Position numbers and translations under genes: made by a program. Shown here piece after piece: positions 1-11,400 of a DNA stretch of 50,202 nucleotides. The stretch covers positions 1-50,202 of the IMG/VR virus record IMGVR_UViG_3300034073_002780. The stretch is one strand, 5' to 3'. The DNA comes from a virus. How positions within the stretch are numbered: the first letter of the stretch is position 1; the number at the start of each line of letters is the position of its first letter. Under the pieces are notes generated by a model, which saw nothing but the letters and a program-made list of their open reading frames with translations, was not told where the DNA came from and searched no databases.

Positions 1-2
1 TT

Positions 3-752
3 TTCAACAAAAAGAAAATCAAGATTTGCTATACTGAGGCAGACGTGTTTGCCCTGTATGATGAGGCAACTCACGCAAATCTGATTGAGATTTTGTGTGC
101 CTGCCTGAAGTATCTTCCCCGCACTGAATACATCATTCAGGGAGACTTTATCGGTTTCGGTGGTTCTAACGAATACAAACCGAATACCGTAACCTATCAG
201 TTCCCTGAGATTGTGCGGCAGGTTATCATCATCGCACCGCATACCTGCTATTATGCTGAGAGTGACATTCGTGAGGCAGTAGCAATGCCCGACCGTGCCA
301 TCTGGAATGATACCGATTATGTCAAGTTTGTGAAACCGAACGCATACATCCTCCACAATCAAGAGTCCTTCGCTGATGTTGAGGAGGTTGTAAAGTTCGC
401 CCGCCAGATGGCAACTGCCGTAGAGTTTGTGAGCGATAAAGAGGCAGCAAAAATCAAACAACAACTGAATGCCTCCATTCGTGCTGCTGAGGTTATCCAT
501 TCTGATGACTTTGATTGTGACCCTAACCTCATCCGACTGTGGGCACTGGTTAAATCAATCAAGGATGATTGCCTCTCCATTTGTCGTAACGATGGTCCCG
601 CAGCATACCTGGGTTCGCCTTATGCTGGATACGAACGGATTGACTCTGAGGGTTACGTGATGACCAATGAGTTCGGTATGTTCAAACTGGTGAATCGTGA
701 GGTGTTTAGCTATGCTAACTTCAACCACGGTCGCTTCCAGTGTGCCAGTTGA
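3..752 (+). CDS. Probable nucleotidyltransferase-fold (RNA/DNA ligase-like) protein, 5' end outside window
   Basis: The reading frame is open to the left window edge (it reads FNKKKIKICYTEADVFALYDE), so the GTG at 45 is unlikely to be the true start and the gene is 5' truncated. The visible part ends in a pattern reminiscent of covalent nucleotidyltransferases: YIIQGDFIGFGG (motif III-like), DSEGYVM (motif IV-like EG) and FKLVNR (motif V-like K). The nucleotide-accepting lysine of motif I would lie upstream, outside the window. The stop codon at 750-752 sits in the loop of a hairpin (740-765). RNA or DNA ligase-like activity is an inference from motif order only. It could also be an unrelated conserved cyanophage protein. 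Confidence 0.55.
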   Translation, partial: FNKKKIKICYTEADVFALYDEATHANLIEILCACLKYLPRTEYIIQGDFIGFGGSNEYKPNTVTYQFPEIVRQVIIIAPHTCYYAESDIREAVAMPDRAIWNDTDYVKFVKPNAYILHNQESFADVEEVVKFARQMATAVEFVSDKEAAKIKQQLNASIRAAEVIHSDDFDCDPNLIRLWALVKSIKDDCLSICRNDGPAAYLGSPYAGYERIDSEGYVMTNEFGMFKLVNREVFSYANFNHGRFQCAS

Positions 753-815
753 GAAGGTGGCACACTCCACCCCCTACGGGGTCCGCTGAGACCCTATACT
801 GATTTCAGTTCAAAC
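740..815 (+). repeat. Intergenic stem-loop/promoter cassette, copy A
   Basis: This is the first of three related cassettes. GTGTGCCA (740-747) pairs perfectly with TGGCACAC (758-765) over a 10-nt loop that contains the upstream stop codon. A second small hairpin follows (CCCC 771-774, GGGG 778-781) and runs into GGGGTC. A -10-like TATACT lies at 795-800 and the conserved leader CAGTTCAAAC at 806-815, just before the ATG at 823. No -35 hexamer is evident 16-18 nt upstream of TATACT. The likely role is to end transcription of the upstream gene and start it for the downstream gene. Confidence 0.75.
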
Positions 816-822
816 GAACCAA

Positions 823-1083
823 ATGACTGCCACCGCTTACCAGACCAACCTCACCGACCGCACTTATAACGGTTGGACCAATTATGAGACCTGGAACGTT
901 GTTCTCTGGATTGAGAATGATGAGAGCATCCAAAACTTCATTCAGGACAATGATGTGTGCTGCTATGAAGAACTGCTGGAGGCATTCTATGAGTTCGGCA
1001 CTAAAGAGACTCCCGATGGTGTGAAGTGGAACGATCCTAAAGTTAACCGTGCTGAAATCAACGGAGACGTTTTCGACTTCTAA
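823..1083 (+). CDS. YETWN-motif small protein (DUF7249-like)
   Basis: This gene encodes 86 residues. The N-terminal third carries YNGWTNYETWNVVLWI, a signature I recognise from small proteins of cyanophages, other phages and plasmids (DUF7249-like). Their function is not known. The rest is acidic, with paired cysteines in DNDVCCYEELLEAF, and it ends in DVFDF. The ATG at 823 lies 23 nt after the TATACT box of cassette A. There is no clear Shine-Dalgarno sequence, only a CAAACGAACCAA leader. Codons are GC-ending far more often than in the structural genes downstream. The family assignment is from motif memory; the function is unknown. Confidence 0.75.
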   Translation: MTATAYQTNLTDRTYNGWTNYETWNVVLWIENDESIQNFIQDNDVCCYEELLEAFYEFGTKETPDGVKWNDPKVNRAEINGDVFDF

Positions 1084-1119
1084 ACCAAACTCCCCGCAAT
1101 CCTTCCCCCATTTCCTACA

Positions 1120-1251
1120 ATGAACAAAGTTCGTTTCGCTATCGCTCTCCTGATCATTGCTCTGGGTTGGAACACACTAGCGGCAGGAATGCGGGCAGTA
1201 AAAGCACTTGACCAACGGGTTGCTAATCAACTGGAACTCCTGGCAGAATAG
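1120..1251 (+). CDS. Tiny single-pass membrane or exported protein
   Basis: This is a 43-residue ORF starting at the ATG at 1120, 36 nt after the previous stop. The N-terminus is MNKVRFAIALLIIALGW: a short basic start and an uninterrupted hydrophobic stretch of about 13 residues. It then continues through NTLAAGMRAVKALDQRVANQ, an amphipathic, charged segment. This looks like a signal-anchor or short inner-membrane protein with a small hydrophilic tail. The leader is pyrimidine-rich and lacks a Shine-Dalgarno sequence, as in several neighbours. No family is recognised. The coding call rests on the gene-sized gap it fills, codon use like its neighbours and the plausible topology. Confidence 0.55.
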   Translation: MNKVRFAIALLIIALGWNTLAAGMRAVKALDQRVANQLELLAE

Positions 1252-1315
1252 CAATCAAAGGGAACGGCAGCGCCCTAAAGACTCCACCCGTTCTTTACAT
1301 TTTTCTTTCTTCATT

Positions 1316-1486
1316 ATGACCCGTGAAATGATGCTTGGTATGCTCCGTGCTGGTAGCAATGGTGAGCAAATCCTCCAGATTCTTGATACCATCGTAAATG
1401 ATGATGATTCTGCCGCTGATATTCAAGGCGGTTATGCTGACGCTGCTCAAGATGCCCAACCTACCCTAAGTGAGGTGGCATTCTAA
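1316..1486 (+). CDS. Small acidic hypothetical protein
   Basis: This gene encodes 56 residues from the ATG at 1316. The frame stays open further upstream, but that part overlaps the 1120-1251 gene and has low-complexity, unlikely composition, so I prefer this internal start. The sequence begins MTREMMLGMLRAGSNGEQIL and becomes acidic (NDDDSAADIQ). The N-terminal half looks like one short helical hairpin. A TTACAT box lies about 16-20 nt upstream, and the leader is pyrimidine-rich without a Shine-Dalgarno motif. The gene is followed by cassette B. No function can be assigned. Confidence 0.6.
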   Translation: MTREMMLGMLRAGSNGEQILQILDTIVNDDDSAADIQGGYADAAQDAQPTLSEVAF

Positions 1487-1500
1487 ACACTAACTCCAGG

Positions 1501-1575
1501 GTGTGCCAGTCGGCAAGGTGGCACACCCCAGCGGCACGGGGTCCCGTTTGACCCTATACTGACATCAGTTCAAAC
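1501..1575 (+). repeat. Intergenic stem-loop/promoter cassette, copy B
   Basis: The second copy has GTGTGCCA (1501-1508) paired with TGGCACAC (1519-1526) over a 10-nt loop. It is followed by CCCC (1526-1529) and GGGG (1538-1541) running into GGGGTC. TATACT is at 1555-1560 and CAGTTCAAAC at 1566-1575. The distance from the stem start to TATACT is 54 nt, against 55 in copy A. TATACT to CAGTTCAAAC is 11 nt in both. The cassette separates the 56-residue gene ending at 1486 from the 53-residue gene starting at 1588. Confidence 0.75.
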
Positions 1576-1587
1576 AAAGGAAACCAA

Positions 1588-1749
1588 ATGCGCTTTGAGG
1601 TTCACGTCCCTTCCCACCCTTACGAAGGCGAATCGGTGCATGATGAGTGGCAAGCGTGGGATCTTTGCCTCACCCTGTCTGAGGAGTTCGGTTATGCTGA
1701 GGTCCGCCGCAACGGTGTGATCCTGGGTTCCTATACTGACGGTCGCTGA
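1588..1749 (+). CDS. Small hypothetical protein behind cassette B
   Basis: This gene encodes 53 residues from the ATG at 1588, preceded by AAAGGAAACCAA, which provides one of the few Shine-Dalgarno-like sequences in this GC-rich block. The sequence begins MRFEVHVPSHPYEGESVHDE and continues into an amphipathic segment (WQAWDLCLTLSEEFGYAEVR), ending in GSYTDGR. The mixed beta/alpha look and small size fit a compact cytoplasmic phage protein. It is transcribed from the putative promoter of cassette B, 28 nt upstream. No family is recognised. Confidence 0.6.
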   Translation: MRFEVHVPSHPYEGESVHDEWQAWDLCLTLSEEFGYAEVRRNGVILGSYTDGR

Positions 1750-1795
1750 CCCCAGGACCTGCTACAATCCTATCAGTCCCACCGCTTACCATCCG

Positions 1796-2401
1796 ATGCC
1801 TGCCACCAAACTCTCCACCGCCCAGGTCGTAACCAAACTGAATCAGAATCCCCCCACTGGATTCAACAAACCCGGTCGCAATAAGGGTGAGCGTGGGCAA
1901 CTGATTGAGGGTTCCCTCGGTGTTGCTAACTCCTCCGACCTTAAGGATCTGATCGACGGTGAGATTAAATCTTTCACCGTTGGCGAAACGATTGCGGTGA
2001 CGATGCTGCAGCATTGCCTGAGTGAGATTCTGGAGGATTCGGTATGCTTTGCTGATAGTAAAGTTGCCGACAAACTGTCACAAACCATTTACGTTGGTTA
2101 CACCCGCTCCAACGATTATGTCGGGTCCGCTGTAGTGAATCTGGAAACTGATCCTGTTCACTATCAGGAACTGGCAGAGGATTATGAGTTCATTTGTGAT
2201 ACCATCCGTGCCGCATTTGATCGGGGCGATGAACTCCACACCATCACCGGACCTAACAAACTGCTCCAAATTCGCACCAAAGCGTCTAAGACTAAAGCGG
2301 GCACTTATGTTCCCCTCACTTATGCCGGTCAGTTCCTGAATGACAAGGCAATGGCATTCTATCTTCTGGCAAACTTCGGCAAGCAAGTGATAGCTAACTG
2401 A
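1796..2401 (+). CDS. MutH/Sau3AI-type endonuclease-like protein
   Basis: This 201-residue protein has the layout of the MutH/Sau3AI branch of PD-(D/E)xK nucleases. NKGERGQLIEGSLG (residues 29-42) supplies the early Glu (E38) in the GQ-hydrophobic-hydrophobic-E context typical of MutH. DLIDGEIKS (51-59) supplies the Asp and the E-x-K pair (E56, K58). GETIAVTML follows, similar to the LETT segment of MutH. The length is close to E. coli MutH. Family members nick or cut DNA at GATC-type sites. Whether this one recognises GATC cannot be read from sequence. No MutS, MutL or Dam gene is visible here. A TACAAT box lies at 1763-1768, with no clear Shine-Dalgarno sequence. The fold assignment is good; specificity and role are unknown. 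Confidence 0.75.
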   Translation: MPATKLSTAQVVTKLNQNPPTGFNKPGRNKGERGQLIEGSLGVANSSDLKDLIDGEIKSFTVGETIAVTMLQHCLSEILEDSVCFADSKVADKLSQTIYVGYTRSNDYVGSAVVNLETDPVHYQELAEDYEFICDTIRAAFDRGDELHTITGPNKLLQIRTKASKTKAGTYVPLTYAGQFLNDKAMAFYLLANFGKQVIAN

Positions 2402-2406
2402 GGGGG

Positions 2407-2481
2407 GTGTGCCAATCCCCGAACCGTCCTCCCCGGCGGTTTGGGGTCGCCCTTTGCCTGTACACTTACATCAGTTCAAAC
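2407..2481 (+). repeat. Intergenic stem-loop/promoter cassette, copy C (diverged)
   Basis: This is the third cassette, with the same spacing but altered stems. The left arm GTGTGCCA (2407-2414) is present, but its TGGCACAC partner is lost. A different hairpin takes its place: CCCCGAACCG (2417-2426) pairs with CGGTTTGGGG (2437-2446), including one G-U pair. GGGGTC follows at 2443-2448, then TACACT at 2461-2466 (54 nt from the left arm, as in copy B) and CAGTTCAAAC at 2472-2481 (11 nt after the box, as in copies A and B). A changed stem with preserved folding and spacing suggests that the structure is what is selected. Confidence 0.7.
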
Positions 2482-2491
2482 GAAACGCCTC

Positions 2492-2710
2492 ATGACCGCT
2501 TCCGCCCCTTGCGTCTATCGTGTCGATCTTCTCCGTGCTGATGGTAGTGTTGCCACGGAGTATCGCAAGCGCAAGCGTCCTACCACTGCCAAAGGTTTCG
2601 ACCGCCAGCATAACAACGTTGTGAACGCTGTTATTGAGGAACTGCGTTACTATCGGGTCGAAGGGTGGCAGAAACTGACTGTGACCCGTGTTCCTGCGGT
2701 GGGGCAATAG
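2492..2710 (+). CDS. Small basic hypothetical protein behind cassette C
   Basis: This gene encodes 72 residues from the ATG at 2492, 25 nt after the TACACT box of cassette C. The frame is open further 5', but that part runs through the cassette, so the internal ATG is preferred. Features are a hydrophobic start (MTASAPCVYRVDLLRADGS), a strongly basic patch (EYRKRKRP) and an amphipathic helix (NNVVNAVIEELRYY), then VEGWQKLTVTRVP. A small nucleic-acid-binding protein would fit the basic patch, but this is inference. No Shine-Dalgarno sequence is seen. The family is not recognised. Confidence 0.6.
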   Translation: MTASAPCVYRVDLLRADGSVATEYRKRKRPTTAKGFDRQHNNVVNAVIEELRYYRVEGWQKLTVTRVPAVGQ

Positions 2711-2751
2711 TCCCCTCCGCTTACATCCTCCCCCCACTCATTCTTCTCACT

Positions 2752-2970
2752 ATGGCAGTCTACTCTCCCGCTACCGACATCCAAACCCGCCGCATCGTGT
2801 GGGTTGGTTCTAAGGTCAAGTGCGGCACTCAGATTAAACATAAGGGGGAACCCGTAGCCCTCAGTGCTGCCGAACTTTCCAACCTCTCCACCGACTATGA
2901 GGGTTGGCAGGGTCCGGGTCACAAATACTGGCACAATCCTGAGGCGAAGCGTATTAGCTTCCCTGCCTGA
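2752..2970 (+). CDS. Small hypothetical protein
   Basis: This gene encodes 72 residues from the ATG at 2752. Upstream in-frame sequence overlaps the previous gene and is not needed. The sequence includes TRRIVWVGSKVKCGTQIKHK, which looks like a small beta-barrel strand set, then ALSAAELSNLSTDYEGWQGP and HKYWHNPEAKRISFPA. The leader is markedly pyrimidine-rich (CTCCCCCCACTCATTCTTCT) with no Shine-Dalgarno motif, and a TTACAT box lies near 2720-2725. It has the same codon style as its neighbours. Function unknown. Confidence 0.6.
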   Translation: MAVYSPATDIQTRRIVWVGSKVKCGTQIKHKGEPVALSAAELSNLSTDYEGWQGPGHKYWHNPEAKRISFPA

Positions 2971-3008
2971 CTTCCTCTCCCATTCTTTACATCATCTCTG
3001 AGGTTTTT

Positions 3009-3179
3009 ATGATTGGCGTTCTCCGTTCCATGTCTGATGATAACGGCACTATCAGTTGGTTTGACGCTGTGAGGTTTGCTCACTCCCACGGCATTCTGCA
3101 GGATCTGTTTAATGATTATGCTCTGATGATTGGGGAGAGGGTTGATACTGACGAACTGTTAGTGTGGGCAGGTTACTGA
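3009..3179 (+). CDS. Small acidic hypothetical protein, last gene of GC-rich block
   Basis: This gene encodes 56 residues from the ATG at 3009, with GAGG about 6 nt upstream as a possible ribosome binding site and a TTACAT box near 2986-2991. The sequence runs MIGVLRSMSDDNGTISWFDA, then a helical segment with HSHG, and ends in DTDELLVWAGY. It is followed within 10 nt by a strong hairpin with a T-rich tail (3188-3213), which fits the end of a transcription unit. No family is recognised. Confidence 0.6.
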   Translation: MIGVLRSMSDDNGTISWFDAVRFAHSHGILQDLFNDYALMIGERVDTDELLVWAGY

Positions 3180-3187
3180 TAGTTCGT

Positions 3188-3213
3188 GGGGGCAGTCTTA
3201 TGCCCCCTTTCTT
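3188..3213 (+). terminator. Probable intrinsic terminator
   Basis: GGGGGCA (3188-3194) pairs perfectly with TGCCCCC (3201-3207) over the 6-nt loop GTCTTA and is followed by TTTCTT. The stem is GC-rich and begins 9 nt after the stop codon of the gene ending at 3179. It marks the end of the GC-rich small-gene block. Confidence 0.75.
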
Positions 3214-3216
3214 ATA

Positions 3217-3256
3217 ACGAATAACGAACGAATAAGGGGTGCTATTCGTTATTCGT
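3217..3256. repeat. 12-bp perfect inverted repeat, 16-nt spacer
   Basis: ACGAATAACGAA (3217-3228) is exactly inverted as TTCGTTATTCGT (3245-3256). The spacer again contains CGAATAA, so the half-site is partly repeated directly. It lies between the terminator and the AT-rich part of the genome. The arms are AT-rich and no T-tract follows, so a protein-binding site is at least as likely as a terminator. Confidence 0.6.
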
Positions 3257-3270
3257 GTTGGCAGTATATA

Positions 3271-3306
3271 CCGTTGAATTCTTTATATTTTTGCCGCCGT
3301 TGAATT
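3271..3306 (+). promoter_or_regulatory. Direct repeat CCGTTGAATT, possible operator
   Basis: CCGTTGAATT occurs at 3271-3280 and again at 3297-3306, 26 bp start to start, each followed by an AT-rich TATA-containing stretch. Further downstream a run of seven C (3314-3320) leads into TATATAAAAA. No gene could be placed in 3180-3407. The exact repetition in a short intergenic region suggests a regulatory site, but this is inference. Confidence 0.35.
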
Positions 3307-3407
3307 TTATAAGCCCCCCCTATATAAAAAACCGAAACTTCCCTAACCTACAAAGTGTTACCCAAGCGACCTTTTTATTTCACTCATAAGAAAAAAATTT
3401 CCAGTAT

Positions 3408-3614
3408 ATGAAAAACTACCGCACACCTTATTGGAATTTCTGGAGAGCAGTCTTTGCAGGATGGTTGATAAGATACCCAGGTTTTTTCTGGCGGGTCGCA
3501 AAGACCATTATACTTCTACAAGTGATTCTAATCTTCTCTCTGATATATCCATTCATTCCAAAAGATGGAGAGACTGAGAAAAACATAGATACTGTGTCCT
3601 ATATAAAAAAATAA
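3408..3614 (+). CDS. Small membrane protein
   Basis: This gene encodes 68 residues. An aromatic, basic N-terminus (MKNYRTPYWNFWRAVFAGWL) leads to one hydrophobic helix of about 20 residues (TIILLQVILIFSLIYPFI), then a charged tail (PKDGETEKNIDTVSYIKK). This is a single-span inner-membrane protein by appearance. Small proteins of this type occur in cyanomyoviruses without known function. It is the first gene after the boundary region and has AT-rich codon use like the rest of the window. Confidence 0.65.
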   Translation: MKNYRTPYWNFWRAVFAGWLIRYPGFFWRVAKTIILLQVILIFSLIYPFIPKDGETEKNIDTVSYIKK

Positions 3615-3630
3615 CAAAATTTATTGAGAG

Positions 3631-3807
3631 ATGAAAAAAAATCCTGAAAAAAATTTCACAGTCGTAGAAGTCGATCCAATTACTGGAGATTATTTCATCA
3701 GAATTCCTGAATGGATGATGACAGAACTTGGATGGTATGAAGATACTGAAGTAAAGGTTCTTCTAGAAGGAAATGAAGTAGTTATTACTGAGAGGAAGTA
3801 TGAATAA
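3631..3807 (+). CDS. AbrB/MazE-like small DNA-binding protein
   Basis: This gene encodes 58 residues from the ATG at 3631, with TTGAGAG just upstream. The core IRIPEWMMTELGWYEDTEVK followed by VLLEGNEVVITER matches the swapped-hairpin pattern of SpoVT/AbrB proteins: a hydrophobic strand, an LGW turn, an acidic residue, then a strand with G-x-E-hydrophobic. In bacteria such proteins are transcription regulators or antitoxins (MazE type). No toxin partner of MazF type is seen next to it. It ends overlapping the next gene by 8 nt. Too short for confident family placement, but the fold call is reasonable. Confidence 0.6.
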   Translation: MKKNPEKNFTVVEVDPITGDYFIRIPEWMMTELGWYEDTEVKVLLEGNEVVITERKYE

Positions 3808-4009
3808 AACACATACAAATTATGTCTATCACATTTACATAAAAAATAAGTGTGCATATCATTCTCTTTCTGAGAGTGAGTTTGATAATATTTGGATAAT
3901 GTTGCAAAACTTATTAGAAATAATGGATACGAAAGAAATATCAAAACATGATATAAGTTTTGAAAAAGTCAGTGTGAATAAGGAAATATCCCTTAACTCA
4001 TCTCATTGA
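3800..4009 (+). CDS. Conserved cyanomyovirus hypothetical protein
   Basis: This gene encodes 69 residues. Its ATG at 3800 lies inside the end of the AbrB-like gene, which suggests coupled translation. It has the pattern YHIYIKNKCAYHSLSESEFD, a helical centre (NIWIMLQNLLEIM) and HDISFEKVSVN. I recognise it as a small protein common in T4-like cyanophages. The YxIYxK...C.YHSLSExEF signature is typical, but no function is known. Its stop overlaps the -35 box of the promoter at 4006-4034. Confidence 0.7.
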   Translation: MNKTHTNYVYHIYIKNKCAYHSLSESEFDNIWIMLQNLLEIMDTKEISKHDISFEKVSVNKEISLNSSH

Positions 4010-4034
4010 CAGGCACTATATAATACTGTATGAT
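4006..4034 (+). promoter_or_regulatory. Near-consensus sigma-70 promoter
   Basis: TTGACA (4006-4011) matches the -35 consensus exactly. It is separated by 17 nt from TATGAT (4029-4034), a five-of-six match to the -10 box. The predicted start near 4041 gives a leader of about 17 nt before the ATG at 4058. It should be read by unmodified host RNA polymerase and probably drives the glycosyltransferase gene and the genes behind it early. Confidence 0.75.
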
Positions 4035-4057
4035 ATGACTGAAGTAATTACTCAATT

Positions 4058-4846
4058 ATGGCAAAAGGATTTACTGTAAAAGCAAAGTCTCCAATCGCAC
4101 AAAATTCATCTTCAACTGAACCTGAATGGGACTATCAAGCAATTAAAGAAAGAATGAGGGGAAAGAGTATTGTATTCTGCCTTCCAGGTCGTGGATGCTC
4201 GTTTACCTTTCTGAAAAATTTTGTACAATTGTGCTTTGACATGGTACAAAATGGTATAGCAATTCAAATCTCTCAAGATTATTCATCCATGGTAAATTTT
4301 GCTCGTTGCAAATGTCTTGGAGCAAACGTTCTTCGTGGACCAGATCAGATTCCATGGGATGGTCGTTTGCAATATGACTATCAACTTTGGATCGACTCTG
4401 ATATTGTATTCAATACTGAAAAATTCTGGCAACTTTGCGATCTTGCTCTTCCTGAAGATGGAACTGAGAAAGAAATTGTTGCTGGATGGTATTGCACAGA
4501 AGATGGTCGTACCACATCAGTTGCTCACTGGTTGGAGGAAGAAGACTTCCGTAGCAACGGTGGTGTTATGAACCATGAGATGGTAGAAGGTATTAGCAAG
4601 CGTAAGAAACCATTTACAGTTGATTACACTGGATTTGGTTGGGTCATGATTAAACATGGAGTCTTTGAGCATTCTGAGATGAAGTATCCATGGTTTGCTC
4701 CCAAAATGCAAGTCTTTGAATCAGGTGAAGTTCAAGATATGTGTGGAGAAGATGTGTCGTTCTGTCTCGATGCAAAAGAAGCAGGATTTGAGATTTGGTG
4801 CGACCCTCGTATCAGAGTCGGTCACGAAAAGACAAGAGTTATTTGA
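4058..4846 (+). CDS. GT-A type glycosyltransferase-like protein
   Basis: This gene encodes 262 residues. After an extended N-terminus, KSIVFCLPGRGCSFTFLKNF begins a Rossmann-like domain. LWIDSDIVF (residues 110-118) carries the D-x-D metal/nucleotide-sugar motif (D113, D115). A later acidic GEDVSFCLDAKEAGF resembles the G/E-D base region of GT-A enzymes, and DPRIRVGHEK provides the histidine often seen near the C-terminus. Related genes are frequent in cyanomyoviruses. The likely role is sugar transfer to a virion protein, host surface component or phage DNA; the acceptor cannot be told from sequence. It is the first gene behind the promoter at 4006-4034. Confidence 0.7.
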   Translation: MAKGFTVKAKSPIAQNSSSTEPEWDYQAIKERMRGKSIVFCLPGRGCSFTFLKNFVQLCFDMVQNGIAIQISQDYSSMVNFARCKCLGANVLRGPDQIPWDGRLQYDYQLWIDSDIVFNTEKFWQLCDLALPEDGTEKEIVAGWYCTEDGRTTSVAHWLEEEDFRSNGGVMNHEMVEGISKRKKPFTVDYTGFGWVMIKHGVFEHSEMKYPWFAPKMQVFESGEVQDMCGEDVSFCLDAKEAGFEIWCDPRIRVGHEKTRVI

Positions 4847-4848
4847 GA

Positions 4849-5022
4849 ATGGTTGACAAGATCACACAGACAAAGTACAATATCCTCTGTAAGGGAAGGA
4901 AAATTCACCAGAACCTCACAGAGGAGCAATTCCTCGATACTATGGAGGACCTGGCACAACAGTTTTATGAGTCAGGTACTCCAAATCCTTACGATATTAC
5001 TACTGAAATTATAGGAGACTAA
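4849..5022 (+). CDS. Conserved cyanomyovirus hypothetical protein
   Basis: This gene encodes 57 residues from the ATG at 4849, two bases after the glycosyltransferase stop. Upstream in-frame sequence is the out-of-frame shadow of that gene. The pattern KYNILCKGRKIHQNLTEEQF followed by DTMEDLAQQFYESGTPNP is one I recognise from short cyanophage proteins, where the N-L-(T/S)-E-E-x-F and MEDLAxxFYxxGxPxP segments are conserved. Tight packing suggests co-transcription with its neighbours. Function unknown. Confidence 0.75.
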   Translation: MVDKITQTKYNILCKGRKIHQNLTEEQFLDTMEDLAQQFYESGTPNPYDITTEIIGD

Positions 5023-6087: not shown

Positions 6088-6110
6088 AATAAGAAGAAAT
6101 TGTGTGCCTC

Positions 6111-6512
6111 ATGGCAATTCAAAAGTTATCTAGATATTTTAAAGATATTGACCTGTCATTTGAGCCTCATCCAGTCACAAATGACATTCCCGTATTGACC
6201 AATGAGAGATCTATTAATAGATCTATACGAAATTTAGTAGAAACTATTCCAACTGAAAGATTTTTTAATTCAATTATAGGATCCAATATCAGAAATGAAC
6301 TTTTTGAATTGTCAGATTTTGCGGCAATTATTACAATAAAAGAACAAATTGAAAATACAATTAAATTATTTGAACCAAGAGTAACAGATTTAACAGTTCA
6401 AGTTGATTCTGCTTTTGATGACAATAGTTTTGAAGTTACTGTAAGTTATAGAATTATTGGTCAAGATGTTCCATCCCAACCATTCACATTTATTCTAGAG
6501 GCAACAAGATAA
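6111..6512 (+). CDS. 25: Baseplate wedge protein gp25
   Basis: This gene encodes 133 residues, against 132 in T4. The sequence KLSRYFKDIDLSFEPHPVTN, then a region with NERSINRSIRNLVETIPTER and FFNSIIGSNIRNELFEL, is the typical lysozyme-like gp25 pattern; the (R/S)I..LV.T..GER-type segment and the G(S)-I-R-x-x-LFE element are characteristic. gp25 joins gp6 and gp53 in the wedge and helps trigger sheath polymerisation. The ATG at 6111 is preferred over a GTG at 6102 because it matches the family start. gp6 starts one base after the stop, as in other cyanophages. Confidence 0.92.
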   Translation: MAIQKLSRYFKDIDLSFEPHPVTNDIPVLTNERSINRSIRNLVETIPTERFFNSIIGSNIRNELFELSDFAAIITIKEQIENTIKLFEPRVTDLTVQVDSAFDDNSFEVTVSYRIIGQDVPSQPFTFILEATR

Positions 6513-6513
6513 A

Positions 6514-8439
6514 ATGCCGTTCACTAAGTTCTCAAATCTAGACTTTGCTCAGATAAAAACATCAATCAAAGATTACTTAAGAGCAAATAGTAATTTTACT
6601 GATTTTGATTTTGAAGGTTCTAACTTCTCTATATTGATTGATGTTTTGGCATACAATACATATATGACTGCCTTCAATGCAAATATGATTGCAAATGAGG
6701 CATTTTTAGATTCTGCGGTAATTAGAGATAATGTTGTATCACTCGCAAGAACTATTGGATATGTACCAAGATCTAGAGTTGCTGCACAGGCAAAAATATC
6801 CTTCACAGTAAATGTTGCTCAACAAACACCTACAGTAACTTTACAACCTGGAGTTGTATGTGTTGGTAATGATCAGAACAGTAGATATATTTTTTCAATT
6901 CCTGATGATATAACGGTAAGTGTTATTGATGGTGTAGCAAATTTTAATAATATTACAGTATATCAGGGAAATTTTATTACTCAAAGATTCACTGTAAATG
7001 CATCATTGGATCAAAGATTTATTCTTGATAATGATGGCATTGATACTTCAACTTTAAATGTATATGTTAGAGGTCCAAGTAATAGTGGTCTTGGAACAAA
7101 ATACAGATTAATAGATAATATTTTAAATATTGACAAGAATTCAGAAACTTACTTACTACAAGAAGTTCCTGATGAAAGATATGAACTTTTATTTGGTGAT
7201 GGATATTTTGGAAAAAAACTTGAAAATGATTCTATAGTTACAGCAACATATATTCAGACCACTGGTAAAATTGGAAACGGTGCTGCTAATTTTGTATATC
7301 AAGGAACAATAAGAAATGCATTTGGTTCTATTATTGTTCCGCAAAATAGAATTTCATTAACAACCAATGAAGTCGCAAGAAATGGTGATGATATTGAATC
7401 AGTATCCTCAATTAAATATTTTGCACCAAGACTCTATTCTTCACAGTATAGAGCAGTAACAACAAAAGATTACGAAGCAATTATTGCTAATCAAATATAT
7501 CCAAATACAGAATCAATTTCAGTAATAGGTGGAGAAGAATTGGATCCACCAGAGTTTGGTACTGTTGTAATCAGTATCAAACCAAAAAATGGAATTAGTG
7601 TATCTGAGTTTGATAAAGAACAAATTCTATCAAAATTAAAGCAGTATAGTTTGGCTGGAATCAATGCTCGTATAGTTGATCTCAAACTTCTTTATATTGA
7701 AATTGACTCTTCAATTTACTATAATGATAATCAAGTGGGAAGTGTTGAAACACTTAAGAGTAGTGTAATTACTAATTTAAATCTTTATGCATCATCTTTA
7801 AATGCTACTAGAGTGGATGGAAGATTTAAATATAGTAAATTACTATCTGTTATTGATAACACTGATAGATCCATTACATCAAATATAACAAAACTTACCA
7901 TAAGAAGAAATTTATCAGCAATTACAAATCAATTCTCCCAATATGAACTCTGTTTTGGTAATAGATTTCATGTAAATAGAGATGGATTTAATATTAAGTC
8001 TACTGGATTTTCAATTAGGACTGAAGATGTTGGTGGTAGTACAAGAGAAATTGATAACTGCTATTTTACAGATACACCTAATGAAGACTTATTAACTGGA
8101 GTAATTTCTGTAGTTAGACCATCAAACGTTGCTGGAGAACCTCCTGTAGTTACAATACCTTCCGCAGGAAAGGTTGACTACATTAAGGGTGAGATTATAA
8201 TAAACACAATATACTTTATCAAAACAGATAATCCAAATAATATTATCGAGATACAAGCATATCCAGAATCTAATGATATCTTATCTCTCAAAGATCTATA
8301 TCTTGTATTTGACGTTTCAAAAAGTAAAATAAATATGATTAAAGATGTAATTTCATCAGGTGATGATGTTTCTGGAGTTCTATTCTCTAAAGATTCATTT
8401 AGATCAAGCTATTCAAATGGAAGTTTGCAGAGGTCATAA
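6514..8439 (+). CDS. 6: Baseplate wedge protein gp6
   Basis: This gene encodes 641 residues, near the T4 length of 660. The N-terminus (KFSNLDFAQIKTSIKDYLRA) and the following segment through GSNFSILIDVLAYNTYMTAF and NANMIANEAFLDSAVIRDNV match the J-like gp6 family closely, as does ARTIGYVPRSRVAAQAKISF. gp6 forms the dimeric wedge core that encircles the baseplate hub. It is packed between gp25 (1 nt) and the first giant structural gene (3 nt), so the three are clearly one unit. Confidence 0.93.
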   Translation: MPFTKFSNLDFAQIKTSIKDYLRANSNFTDFDFEGSNFSILIDVLAYNTYMTAFNANMIANEAFLDSAVIRDNVVSLARTIGYVPRSRVAAQAKISFTVNVAQQTPTVTLQPGVVCVGNDQNSRYIFSIPDDITVSVIDGVANFNNITVYQGNFITQRFTVNASLDQRFILDNDGIDTSTLNVYVRGPSNSGLGTKYRLIDNILNIDKNSETYLLQEVPDERYELLFGDGYFGKKLENDSIVTATYIQTTGKIGNGAANFVYQGTIRNAFGSIIVPQNRISLTTNEVARNGDDIESVSSIKYFAPRLYSSQYRAVTTKDYEAIIANQIYPNTESISVIGGEELDPPEFGTVVISIKPKNGISVSEFDKEQILSKLKQYSLAGINARIVDLKLLYIEIDSSIYYNDNQVGSVETLKSSVITNLNLYASSLNATRVDGRFKYSKLLSVIDNTDRSITSNITKLTIRRNLSAITNQFSQYELCFGNRFHVNRDGFNIKSTGFSIRTEDVGGSTREIDNCYFTDTPNEDLLTGVISVVRPSNVAGEPPVVTIPSAGKVDYIKGEIIINTIYFIKTDNPNNIIEIQAYPESNDILSLKDLYLVFDVSKSKINMIKDVISSGDDVSGVLFSKDSFRSSYSNGSLQRS

Positions 8440-8442
8440 AAA

Positions 8443-11400
8443 ATGGTAAGAGGGATTGATGGAAAGGTAAAAATTAGTCAAATAATTGAAAGTCAACTTC
8501 CAGAATTTATTAAAGATAATATATCCATTGTAGAAGCAGATACTATATCTTCTACTTCTTTTAATGCAACATATTCCAGAACAGGAAAAACAATTATAGT
8601 ATCCAGCCCAAATCACAATTTGGCTGAGCAACAAAGAATAAATGTAGAGACTATAAGTGGATCTGCTTCTGAGGGATTTTATGGTGTATATGAAGTACTT
8701 GATAATAATACATTTACAATACTAGACGGAATAGGTGGATCAACTAGTGGATCACTTAGCTATACAACTTATTCTGGGTTTAATTCAGTAGAAACTAGAG
8801 AAATATTATCTGAACCAGGATCTTATGATAAATTTATTGAATTTTTAAGACAATACTACATCTCACAAGAGTATCCATCATCAAGTCTTGATATTATTGA
8901 TAATCTTGACAGTTATTTGTCATTAGATAATCTGGTTCCAGAATCTCTCACAAATGAAACAACATTAACTGCTGATGTTTCTTCTACATCAGATACCATT
9001 TTTGTTTCTAGTACAAAAGGATTTCCAGATAAGTATGGATTAATAAAGATTGATGATGAAATTATAACATACTTATCTAAAACACCAATTTCATTTTTAG
9101 GATGTATAAGAGGATTTAGTGGTATAACAAATTATAGTGATTCTCTTAATCCAGAAGAATTAGTATTTTCAACATCTGATTCAGATTCTCATTTATCTGG
9201 AAGAACTGTTGAAAATCTTAGTAATCTATTTCTTAAAGAATTTTTTAGGAAAATAAAGTACTCTTTATCACCAGGATTAGAAAATAAAGAATTTGCACCT
9301 GGAATAAATATTGGAAATTTTTTAAAAGAATCTAGATCTTTTTACGAATCAAAAGGTACAGAAGAATCTTTTAAAATATTATTTAAAGTATTATATGGTA
9401 GTGATGTAAGAATAATTGACTTAGAGCAATTTTTATTAAAACCTTCTTCAGCAAGATATGTTAGAAGAGAAGTATCTGTTGTAGAAGCATTATCTGGAAA
9501 TCCAGTCAATATTGTTGGACAAACTATTCTCAAAGAGAATGATAGTGAAGTGAGTGCTTCAGTTACTAGAGTAACACCTTTTACTGTTGGACAGAGAACT
9601 TATTATAACCTATATCTTTTTGTTGGTTACGATGATGCATCATCATCAATTACTGGAAGATTTGATGTAACTCCTAGTACTCTATGTGCTACCGAAGTAT
9701 CTATAACTCCAACATCTTATGAGGTAGTAACTGTAGATTCTACTGTTGGATTCAATGAATCTGGTTATTTCATTTATGAGGGAAGTAAAATATACTATGA
9801 TGAAAAGACTATAAACCAATTTTTGGGATGTAGGTCAGAAACTTCTACAATTTTACTGGAAAAAGCAAAGTCTATTACATCATCAGATCTTTATTTTTCA
9901 TATGAAAATGGGGATCCAACTAAAAAAGTTGAATTGAGATTTACTGGTATAGTTGATAATATTGATATTGATCTGGATTATGATGATCCATCAGAGAAAT
10001 TTATCTATATTTCTGGAGACGAAATATTTGTAAAAAACTTAGGAAAAGTAATAGAAAATCCAAACCCAAGTGAATCTCCATCAGATGTTGAAATTTTTTC
10101 TAATTCTTGGAAATATAACACCAGTTGCAGATTTCAGATTGATAGAGAATCTATCTCTGGTAGTGAATTTTACATCTTTACAAATATTGATAAGTCAAAT
10201 TTGATAGAAGGTGAATATATTGAAATATTGGAAAGAGGAACCCAGTTGGTTGTTCCTGGGTTAGAAAATGTTGAAGTAAGTATTATAGATGGAAGAAGAG
10301 TAGTAACCTCATCAAACATTAAACAGTTATTATTAGATGCTGAAAATAAAGGACTATCAGTAATAACTGAAGACTATGATTTTAGGAGGAAACAAAAAAC
10401 TGCATCTTCTAATAGTAATCTCCATATAAAATATGGTGATGATAAGATCTTAGCAAATATTTTAAATTTATATGAGGATGAATTAGATAACAGTCTATAT
10501 GTTGCATCTAATTCTCTCCCAAGTTATGAAATTAATCCTTATATTTACAAATATGATATTGATAGTTTACCATTAATTGGATATGATTCAGAAACTGATC
10601 TATATTCAATAATTAAATTTTCTGAACCAGTATCATTTTTAAATGGTGATAGAGTTTCTTATTTTCCTACGGATCAATCTATTGTAGGATTAAGTACTGA
10701 AGAATATTACTATGTAAAAGTTATTAGTGATGATAGAACAGAAATTAACTTATATGCGTCACCATCATCAATTATTTCTGGTGATCCTATAGGAGTTGGT
10801 GAACTTTTATCTGGAACACATAGTATAGTTCTATATGATCAGAGAAGTCTTGAGGTAGAACCTCAAAAATTACTTAGAAAATTTAATCTGAATCAGAATG
10901 ATAACAGCATAAATCGATATACTACTGATCCTGGACCAATTGGACTTTTAGTTGATGGAGTAGAAATATTCAGCTATAAGACAAATGATAAGGTTTATTA
11001 TGGCCCAATAGAAAGTGTATCTGTATTGAATAGTGGTTCTGGATATGATGTAATCAATCCACCATTGCTAGAATTTTCTACTGGAAATGCAAAAATGCAA
11101 CCAGTAATTAGTGGATCTTTTGAAAAGGTACTTGTTTCAAGACAAGAATTTAATATTGGTGAAAATATTTTAATCAATGTATCTGGTGGTAATGGTCAAG
11201 GAGCTGTATTAGAGCCAGTTCTAAAGACATATCAAAGAGAAGTTAATTTTGATGCTAGAACTATTACAAATGGTGGTGGAATAGATAATGATTTAGAAAC
11301 AATTACATTTTTAACACCACATAGTTTTTTTGAAGGACAAGAAGTAATTTATGATGCAAATAACAATACACCAATTGGAATTTCTTCATTTAAAGTAACT

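Follow-up and report, generated by a model that had tools for sequence, protein, structure and literature searches.

A recurrent, predicted operator–promoter cassette between small accessory genes of T4-like cyanophages and the mosaic gene content at its borders

When the same short unit recurs between the small genes of a phage, does it start transcripts, end them, or mark the places where genes are exchanged? We address this for three cassettes, at 740–815, 1501–1575 and 2407–2481, of IMG/VR virus record IMGVR_UViG_3300034073_002780, whose positions 1 to 50,202 (50,202 nucleotides, nt) are the window analyzed here. A sequence-only reading of this DNA had proposed a cyanophage analogue of the promoter-early stem-loop (PeSL) cassettes of T4-type coliphages. 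We consider it probable that each cassette is an operator-dependent, insulated promoter, likely active early, and that it also serves as a site of gene exchange.

Cassette anatomy

All elements described for the three cassettes lie at the coordinates given for them, with amendments to their content: GGGGTC, taken for a shared element, is merely the right arm of a hairpin of variable sequence and is not conserved in relatives, and the conserved tail, present in all three copies, starts one base earlier than noted, as TCAGTTCAAAC. The left arm of the palindrome, GTGTGCCA, occurs five times in the window, always inside cassettes (0.6 expected; none of 100 shuffles reached five), and exact CAGTTCAAAC is found at 806, 1566 and 2472 only. 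Copies 1 and 2 have TGGCACAC as their right arm; that of copy 3, CCGTCCTC, is weaker. The parts and the genes that follow them are:

740..765, + strand: cassette 1, predicted operator palindrome GTGTGCCA-N10-TGGCACAC, holding the upstream stop codon TGA (750–752)
769..782, + strand: cassette 1, hairpin ACCCC-CTAC-GGGGT between operator and −10, without a T tract (from folding)
795..800, + strand: cassette 1, −10 box TATACT
805..815, + strand: cassette 1, conserved start/leader TCAGTTCAAAC, predicted +1 at A807
823..1083, + strand: gene after cassette 1, 86 amino acids (aa), DUF7249 / phrog_871
1501..1526, + strand: cassette 2, predicted operator palindrome
1539..1554, + strand: cassette 2, hairpin GGGTC-N6-GACCC between operator and −10 (from folding)
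1555..1560, + strand: cassette 2, −10 box TATACT
1565..1575, + strand: cassette 2, conserved leader TCAGTTCAAAC
1588..1749, + strand: gene after cassette 2, 53 aa, phrog_17176 (unknown function), absent from the 60-aa list of open reading frames (ORFs)
2407..2432, + strand: cassette 3, predicted operator with the weaker right arm CCGTCCTC
2417..2446, + strand: cassette 3, hairpin (arms of 12 bp) that overlaps the operator's right half (from folding)
2461..2466, + strand: cassette 3, −10 box TACACT
2471..2481, + strand: cassette 3, conserved leader TCAGTTCAAAC
2492..2710, + strand: gene after cassette 3, 72 aa, phrog_5495 (unknown function)

We collected 318 cassettes in 138 loci and built a profile from 116 non-redundant copies aligned on the −10 box; the palindrome was refined by aligning on its right arm, and 244 distinct copies served for the spacing, covariation, −35 and hairpin tests. 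The putative operator is a 26-bp palindrome, GTGTGMCAGTT-N4-AACTGKCACAC, whose right arm begins 39–41 nt ahead of the first T of the −10 box in 238 of the 244 copies, although the intervening bases vary. Between operator and −10 lies a spacer of ∼28 nt without fixed sequence, often able to form a hairpin, and the −10 box TATACT follows in set register, succeeded by the conserved start/leader TCAGTTCAAAC. With the A of TCAGTT taken as the transcription start, the center of the palindrome falls near −54. The ATG, ∼28 nt past the −10 box in the general anatomy, stands at 27–34 nt in nearly all 318 cassettes, and the stop codon of the preceding gene falls within the palindrome in 119 of 233.

A further core, TACAAT-CCTA-TCAGTCCCACC, lies at 1763–1796 of the window, with its ATG 33 nt past the −10 and ahead of the gene at 1796–2401. 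It has no recognisable operator and is a possible decayed cassette.

Occurrence in phages and in cellular genomes

Further copies, named as support by the sequence-only reading, are plentiful: the arrangement recurs in over 100 IMG/VR contigs, with the full pattern in 39 and its right half in at least 120 stretches, nearly all of which have a recognisable palindrome ∼40 nt upstream. The best-matching cultured phages are T4-like cyanophages (S-PM2, S-RSM4, S-RIM32, S-SM2, Sf-CH1b and others); the remaining matches are short and weak and come mostly from Streptomyces phages. One genome per species from 84,980 bacteria and archaea (257 billion bases) yielded 23 scattered right-half matches, none with the palindrome, against ∼60 predicted by base counting, which places them at chance level. 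Plasmids gave one weak, unrelated match, and a literature search for the motif string returned unrelated papers only, among the matches listed.

Whole phage genomes were also scanned with the palindrome alone. Operators with a −10 box ∼28 nt downstream number 18 in P-SSM2, 15 in S-PM2, 11 in S-RSM4, 9 in Sf-CH1b, 8 each in Syn9 and P-SSM3, and a few in S-SM2; the Syn9 sites lie mostly in the small-gene cluster before gp25. No operator was found in T4, nor in pelagiphage HTVC008M and podovirus P-SSP7, both scanned up to their last 5–9 kb. The operator is thus present in Syn9 and other cyanomyoviruses and not in the non-cyanobacterial relatives scanned.

Behind these operators the leader is mostly other than CAGTTCAAAC, so the CAGTTCAAAC leader is one family of a wider system. 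Orthologues of the window's three cassette genes in S-CREM1, S-RIM32, P-RSM1 and ACG-2014d likewise follow an operator, a spacer and a −10, with leaders of other kinds, and the S-RIM32 orthologue has a clear T-tailed hairpin; a clear operator was not seen at the S-B68 homologue or at the DUF7249 gene of S-CREM1. In S-PM2, cassettes at L190 5137 and 16289 have the nearly identical leader GGTAGTCAAGGGAACGCCCCATG, which is another leader family, repeated inside one genome.

Gene content at cassettes

Different genes flank cassettes in different phages, as had been anticipated, and gene content switches at the cassette, within mosaic blocks of small genes. A single protein family behind cassettes follows many upstream families (e.g. 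12 different ones in 16 cases). The gene upstream of cassette 1 is common to a dozen contigs, mostly with another downstream gene, and the gene downstream of it also occurs in two contigs, L092 and L132, each time with another upstream gene. Comparison of L024 with L132 places the switch precisely: at one cassette the upstream gene is 97% identical, operator, hairpin, −10 and leader are nearly identical, and divergence starts at the ATG, whereas another cassette shows the converse, with all upstream sequence different and identity starting at the −10.

We compared distinct pairs of cassettes with at least one homologous flank; such flank pairs are not independent of one another, and in them both flanks were homologous in 38, the upstream one only in 113 and the downstream one only in 263. 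Nearby gene starts that lack a cassette, taken from within 3 kb, gave corresponding counts of 224, 172 and 720. Both neighbours are therefore kept in 9% of pairs at cassettes and in 20% at other gene starts.

The ends of the small genes are standardised, because the upstream stop often falls in the palindrome and the following start codon directly adjoins the conserved −10/leader. Such common ends would offer short stretches of homology for gene swapping between phages, as the PeSLs of coliphages do, and the cassettes may thereby cause the exchanges. Genes behind cassettes average a guanine-plus-cytosine (GC) content of 50.2%, compared with 37.8% in the surrounding sequence, and are the richer in 96 of 97 loci. 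This difference is consistent with a shared pool of exchanged genes, and codon tuning of early genes to the host would look similar.

Several results weigh against the proposed dual role. Gene starts lacking a cassette are also highly mosaic, so that the excess at cassettes is about two-fold only. A spontaneous 9.5-kb deletion in S-PM2 ends outside cassettes. The expectation that copies lie only between accessory genes is borne out for most, but one S-SM2 copy stands at the start of cobS. On the promoter side, a few copies do carry a −35-like hexamer, and no T-tailed terminator was found at the three cassettes of the window.

The S-PM2 deletion mutant (LN828717) joins points ∼9.5 kb apart (L173 5797 compared with L190 15338), with neither a cassette nor a long repeat at the junction; we rejected it as a cassette-mediated event, its end points being elsewhere. 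PeSL density in the deleted S-PM2 ORFanage had been judged too low, and PeSL-like exchange was thought unlikely there (PMC4503421). One of the stem loops listed in the same paper, at 11369–11391, corresponds to the hairpin in the spacer of a cassette with an operator, and a much denser array of cassettes is found in S-PM2 at ∼21.5–24.6 kb.

These observations bear on a purely regulatory explanation, in which cassettes lie at mosaic junctions since early accessory genes need promoters of their own and sit in hypervariable regions. It would account for the mosaicism of cassette-free starts in the same regions, for the location of the S-PM2 deletion ends, and for the retention of the cassette architecture by orthologous genes despite differing leaders. 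The lower retention of both neighbours at cassettes and the switches exactly at −10, leader or ATG in closely related contigs argue the other way, and we regard this explanation as possible, though on balance unlikely.

Promoter class and the putative regulator

The reading of cassettes as promoters that also serve exchange requires a mode of initiation compatible with their sequence. A −35 match of at least four of six positions occurs in 36 of 244 copies (14.6 expected), and no −35 element is conserved. The window cassettes received no sigma-70 promoter call, a host-type −35 hexamer 16–18 nt before the −10 being absent from them. In the 116-copy profile, no MotA-type box appears near −30, where the positions belong to the variable G/C-rich spacer. 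The simplest reading of these sequences is a predicted operator-dependent promoter that uses the host polymerase. In T4, the proteins Alt, ModA, MotA and AsiA steer host RNA polymerase; in cyanomyoviruses, which have no counterparts of alt, modA, motA and asiA, the way the programme starts has been unclear (PMC2984593).

We propose that in T4-like cyanophages (Kyanoviridae) each cassette would act as a promoter complete in itself. The palindrome, whose center lies ∼54 bp ahead of the predicted start, would be bound by a dimeric regulator, the existence and activating effect of which we infer from the shape and position of the site. The regulator would recruit host RNA polymerase, together with its primary sigma factor, to the −10 box, which is without a conserved −35. 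Genes behind cassettes would probably be expressed early.

A palindromic dimer site could also be bound by a repressor, which would silence early genes at a later stage, and inverted repeats at the start site could supply it with a second contact. One such repeat, ACTGA-N2-TCAGT, spans the −10 and start of cassette 1 (798–809). Inverted repeats of at least 4 bp over −10 and start are found in 57% of CAGTT-type leaders, in 25% of others and in 6% of shuffles, and they differ in sequence among loci (e.g. GATTAC-N3-GTAATC). A site near −54 lies upstream of the usual blocking zone of repressors, however, and the lack of a conserved −35 argues for help in recruitment, so we hold repression to be unlikely.

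The palindrome and the spacer hairpin

The activator reading treats the palindrome as DNA. It had originally been described as a functional stem-loop, and one alternative would make it an RNA element of the upstream transcript, acting as terminator or processing signal, next to a plain host-type promoter. Folding is possible for the palindromes of copies 1 and 2, and the upstream stop codon often lies within the palindrome. Across the 244 copies, however, none of ten arm pairs exceeds z = 1 for covariation, and two pair less often than in shuffles. In a separate count, the four combinations at the variable pair beside the core are nearly equally frequent (26, 25, 22 and 22). The lack of covariation, together with the rigid distance to the −10, points to a predicted operator for a dimeric DNA-binding protein. 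The covariation test led us to discard the palindrome as an RNA stem; with the missing −35 conservation and a hairpin signal that exceeds shuffles in the spacer instead, we consider the RNA alternative as a whole very improbable.

The stem-loop part of the sequence-only reading survives in another place, since a separate hairpin sits between operator and −10 but is not formed by the GTGTGCCA palindrome. Spacer hairpins of −8 kcal/mol or better occur in 108 of 244 copies, compared with 36.7 in shuffles, and 26 of the 244 have a T-rich tail like that of an intrinsic terminator. The spacer hairpin would halt or weaken read-through from the preceding gene; because those of the window have no T tract, termination at its three cassettes is something we only infer. 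Rfam 15 families gave no match in window positions 1–5000.

An origin as recombinase sites akin to integron attC, inserted by a site-specific integrase, is scarcely credible: small gene units with standard ends and a GC content unlike that of the carrier genome would suit it, but attC sites need a folded, structure-conserving (covarying) form that the cassette arms lack, attC cassettes are usually without promoters, and no integrase was recognised among the scanned window proteins.

Genomic setting

The window is part of a T4-like cyanophage and contains the baseplate genes gp25 (6102–6512) and gp6 (6514–8439); megablast did not find near-identical phage records. The cassettes lie in the following block:

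1..3200, no strand assigned: GC-rich block of small genes, lying upstream of gp25 and gp6; 50.2% GC, the remainder of the window having 32.8%

The order small genes, gp25, gp6 is common to the window and S-PM2. Cassette arrays precede gp25 in both. The ORF upstream of cassette 1 (45–752; DUF6267, phrog_455) aligns to an internal part of its family only, which implies that the gene starts before the window and that 45 is not its true start.

Block genes without a cassette (1120, 1278–1316, 2717 and 2980) have C-rich tracts and TTTACAT/CTACAAT-like hexamers upstream, possibly a second promoter class. The border between GC-rich and AT-rich sequence is sharp (3188–3260) and holds a T-tailed terminator (3188–3207) and an inverted repeat made of CGAATAACGAA and TTCGTTATTCG.

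Implications

As the operator closes one gene and the promoter opens the next, early accessory genes would form a plug-and-play pool. We suggest, tentatively, that a single dimeric regulator, of host origin or carried in the virion, could activate early genes across T4-like cyanophages, and that a GC-rich accessory pool could be shuffled among them in this manner. Every T4-like phage of cyanobacteria whose whole genome we scanned has the operator in fixed register before the −10, which offers a handle for pulling out the regulator. The cassettes mark exchange sites of small accessory genes, which bears on gene renewal in marine phages, and they provide a usable start signal for annotating very small genes.

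Comparison with known systems

Host sigma-70-type promoters share the TATAMT −10 box with the cassette, which differs from them in lacking a conserved −35 and in its fixed upstream palindrome. T4 middle promoters (a MotA box at −30 plus a −10, served by AsiA/MotA) resemble it in that an upstream activator site replaces the −35; the operator of the cassette is instead palindromic and centered near −54, and there is no MotA box.

Doron and colleagues reportedly described, in ISME J in 2016, a novel element that controls early genes of Syn9 and is conserved in T4-like cyanophages. It may be the cassette operator; that description may or may not extend to the spacer hairpin, to the CAGTTCAAAC leader and to a role in mosaicism.

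The closest counterpart in behaviour is the PeSL cassette of T4-type phages, which Arbiol in 2010 and Comeau in 2014 reportedly described. Each joins a promoter to a stem-loop, recurs among the small accessory genes in hyperplastic regions and stands where gene content changes from one phage to another, and the cyanophage cassette combines a −10 box, as a predicted promoter, with spacer hairpins above shuffle level in one short intergenic unit. The two are unrelated in sequence, and the cyanophage cassette adds a palindromic operator while having no conserved −35. The proposed analogy with a sequence of its own therefore holds for behaviour (repeated copies and mosaic flanks) but not for descent: given the absence of the operator from T4 and of a conserved −35 from the cassette, we regard the cassette as PeSL-like by function.

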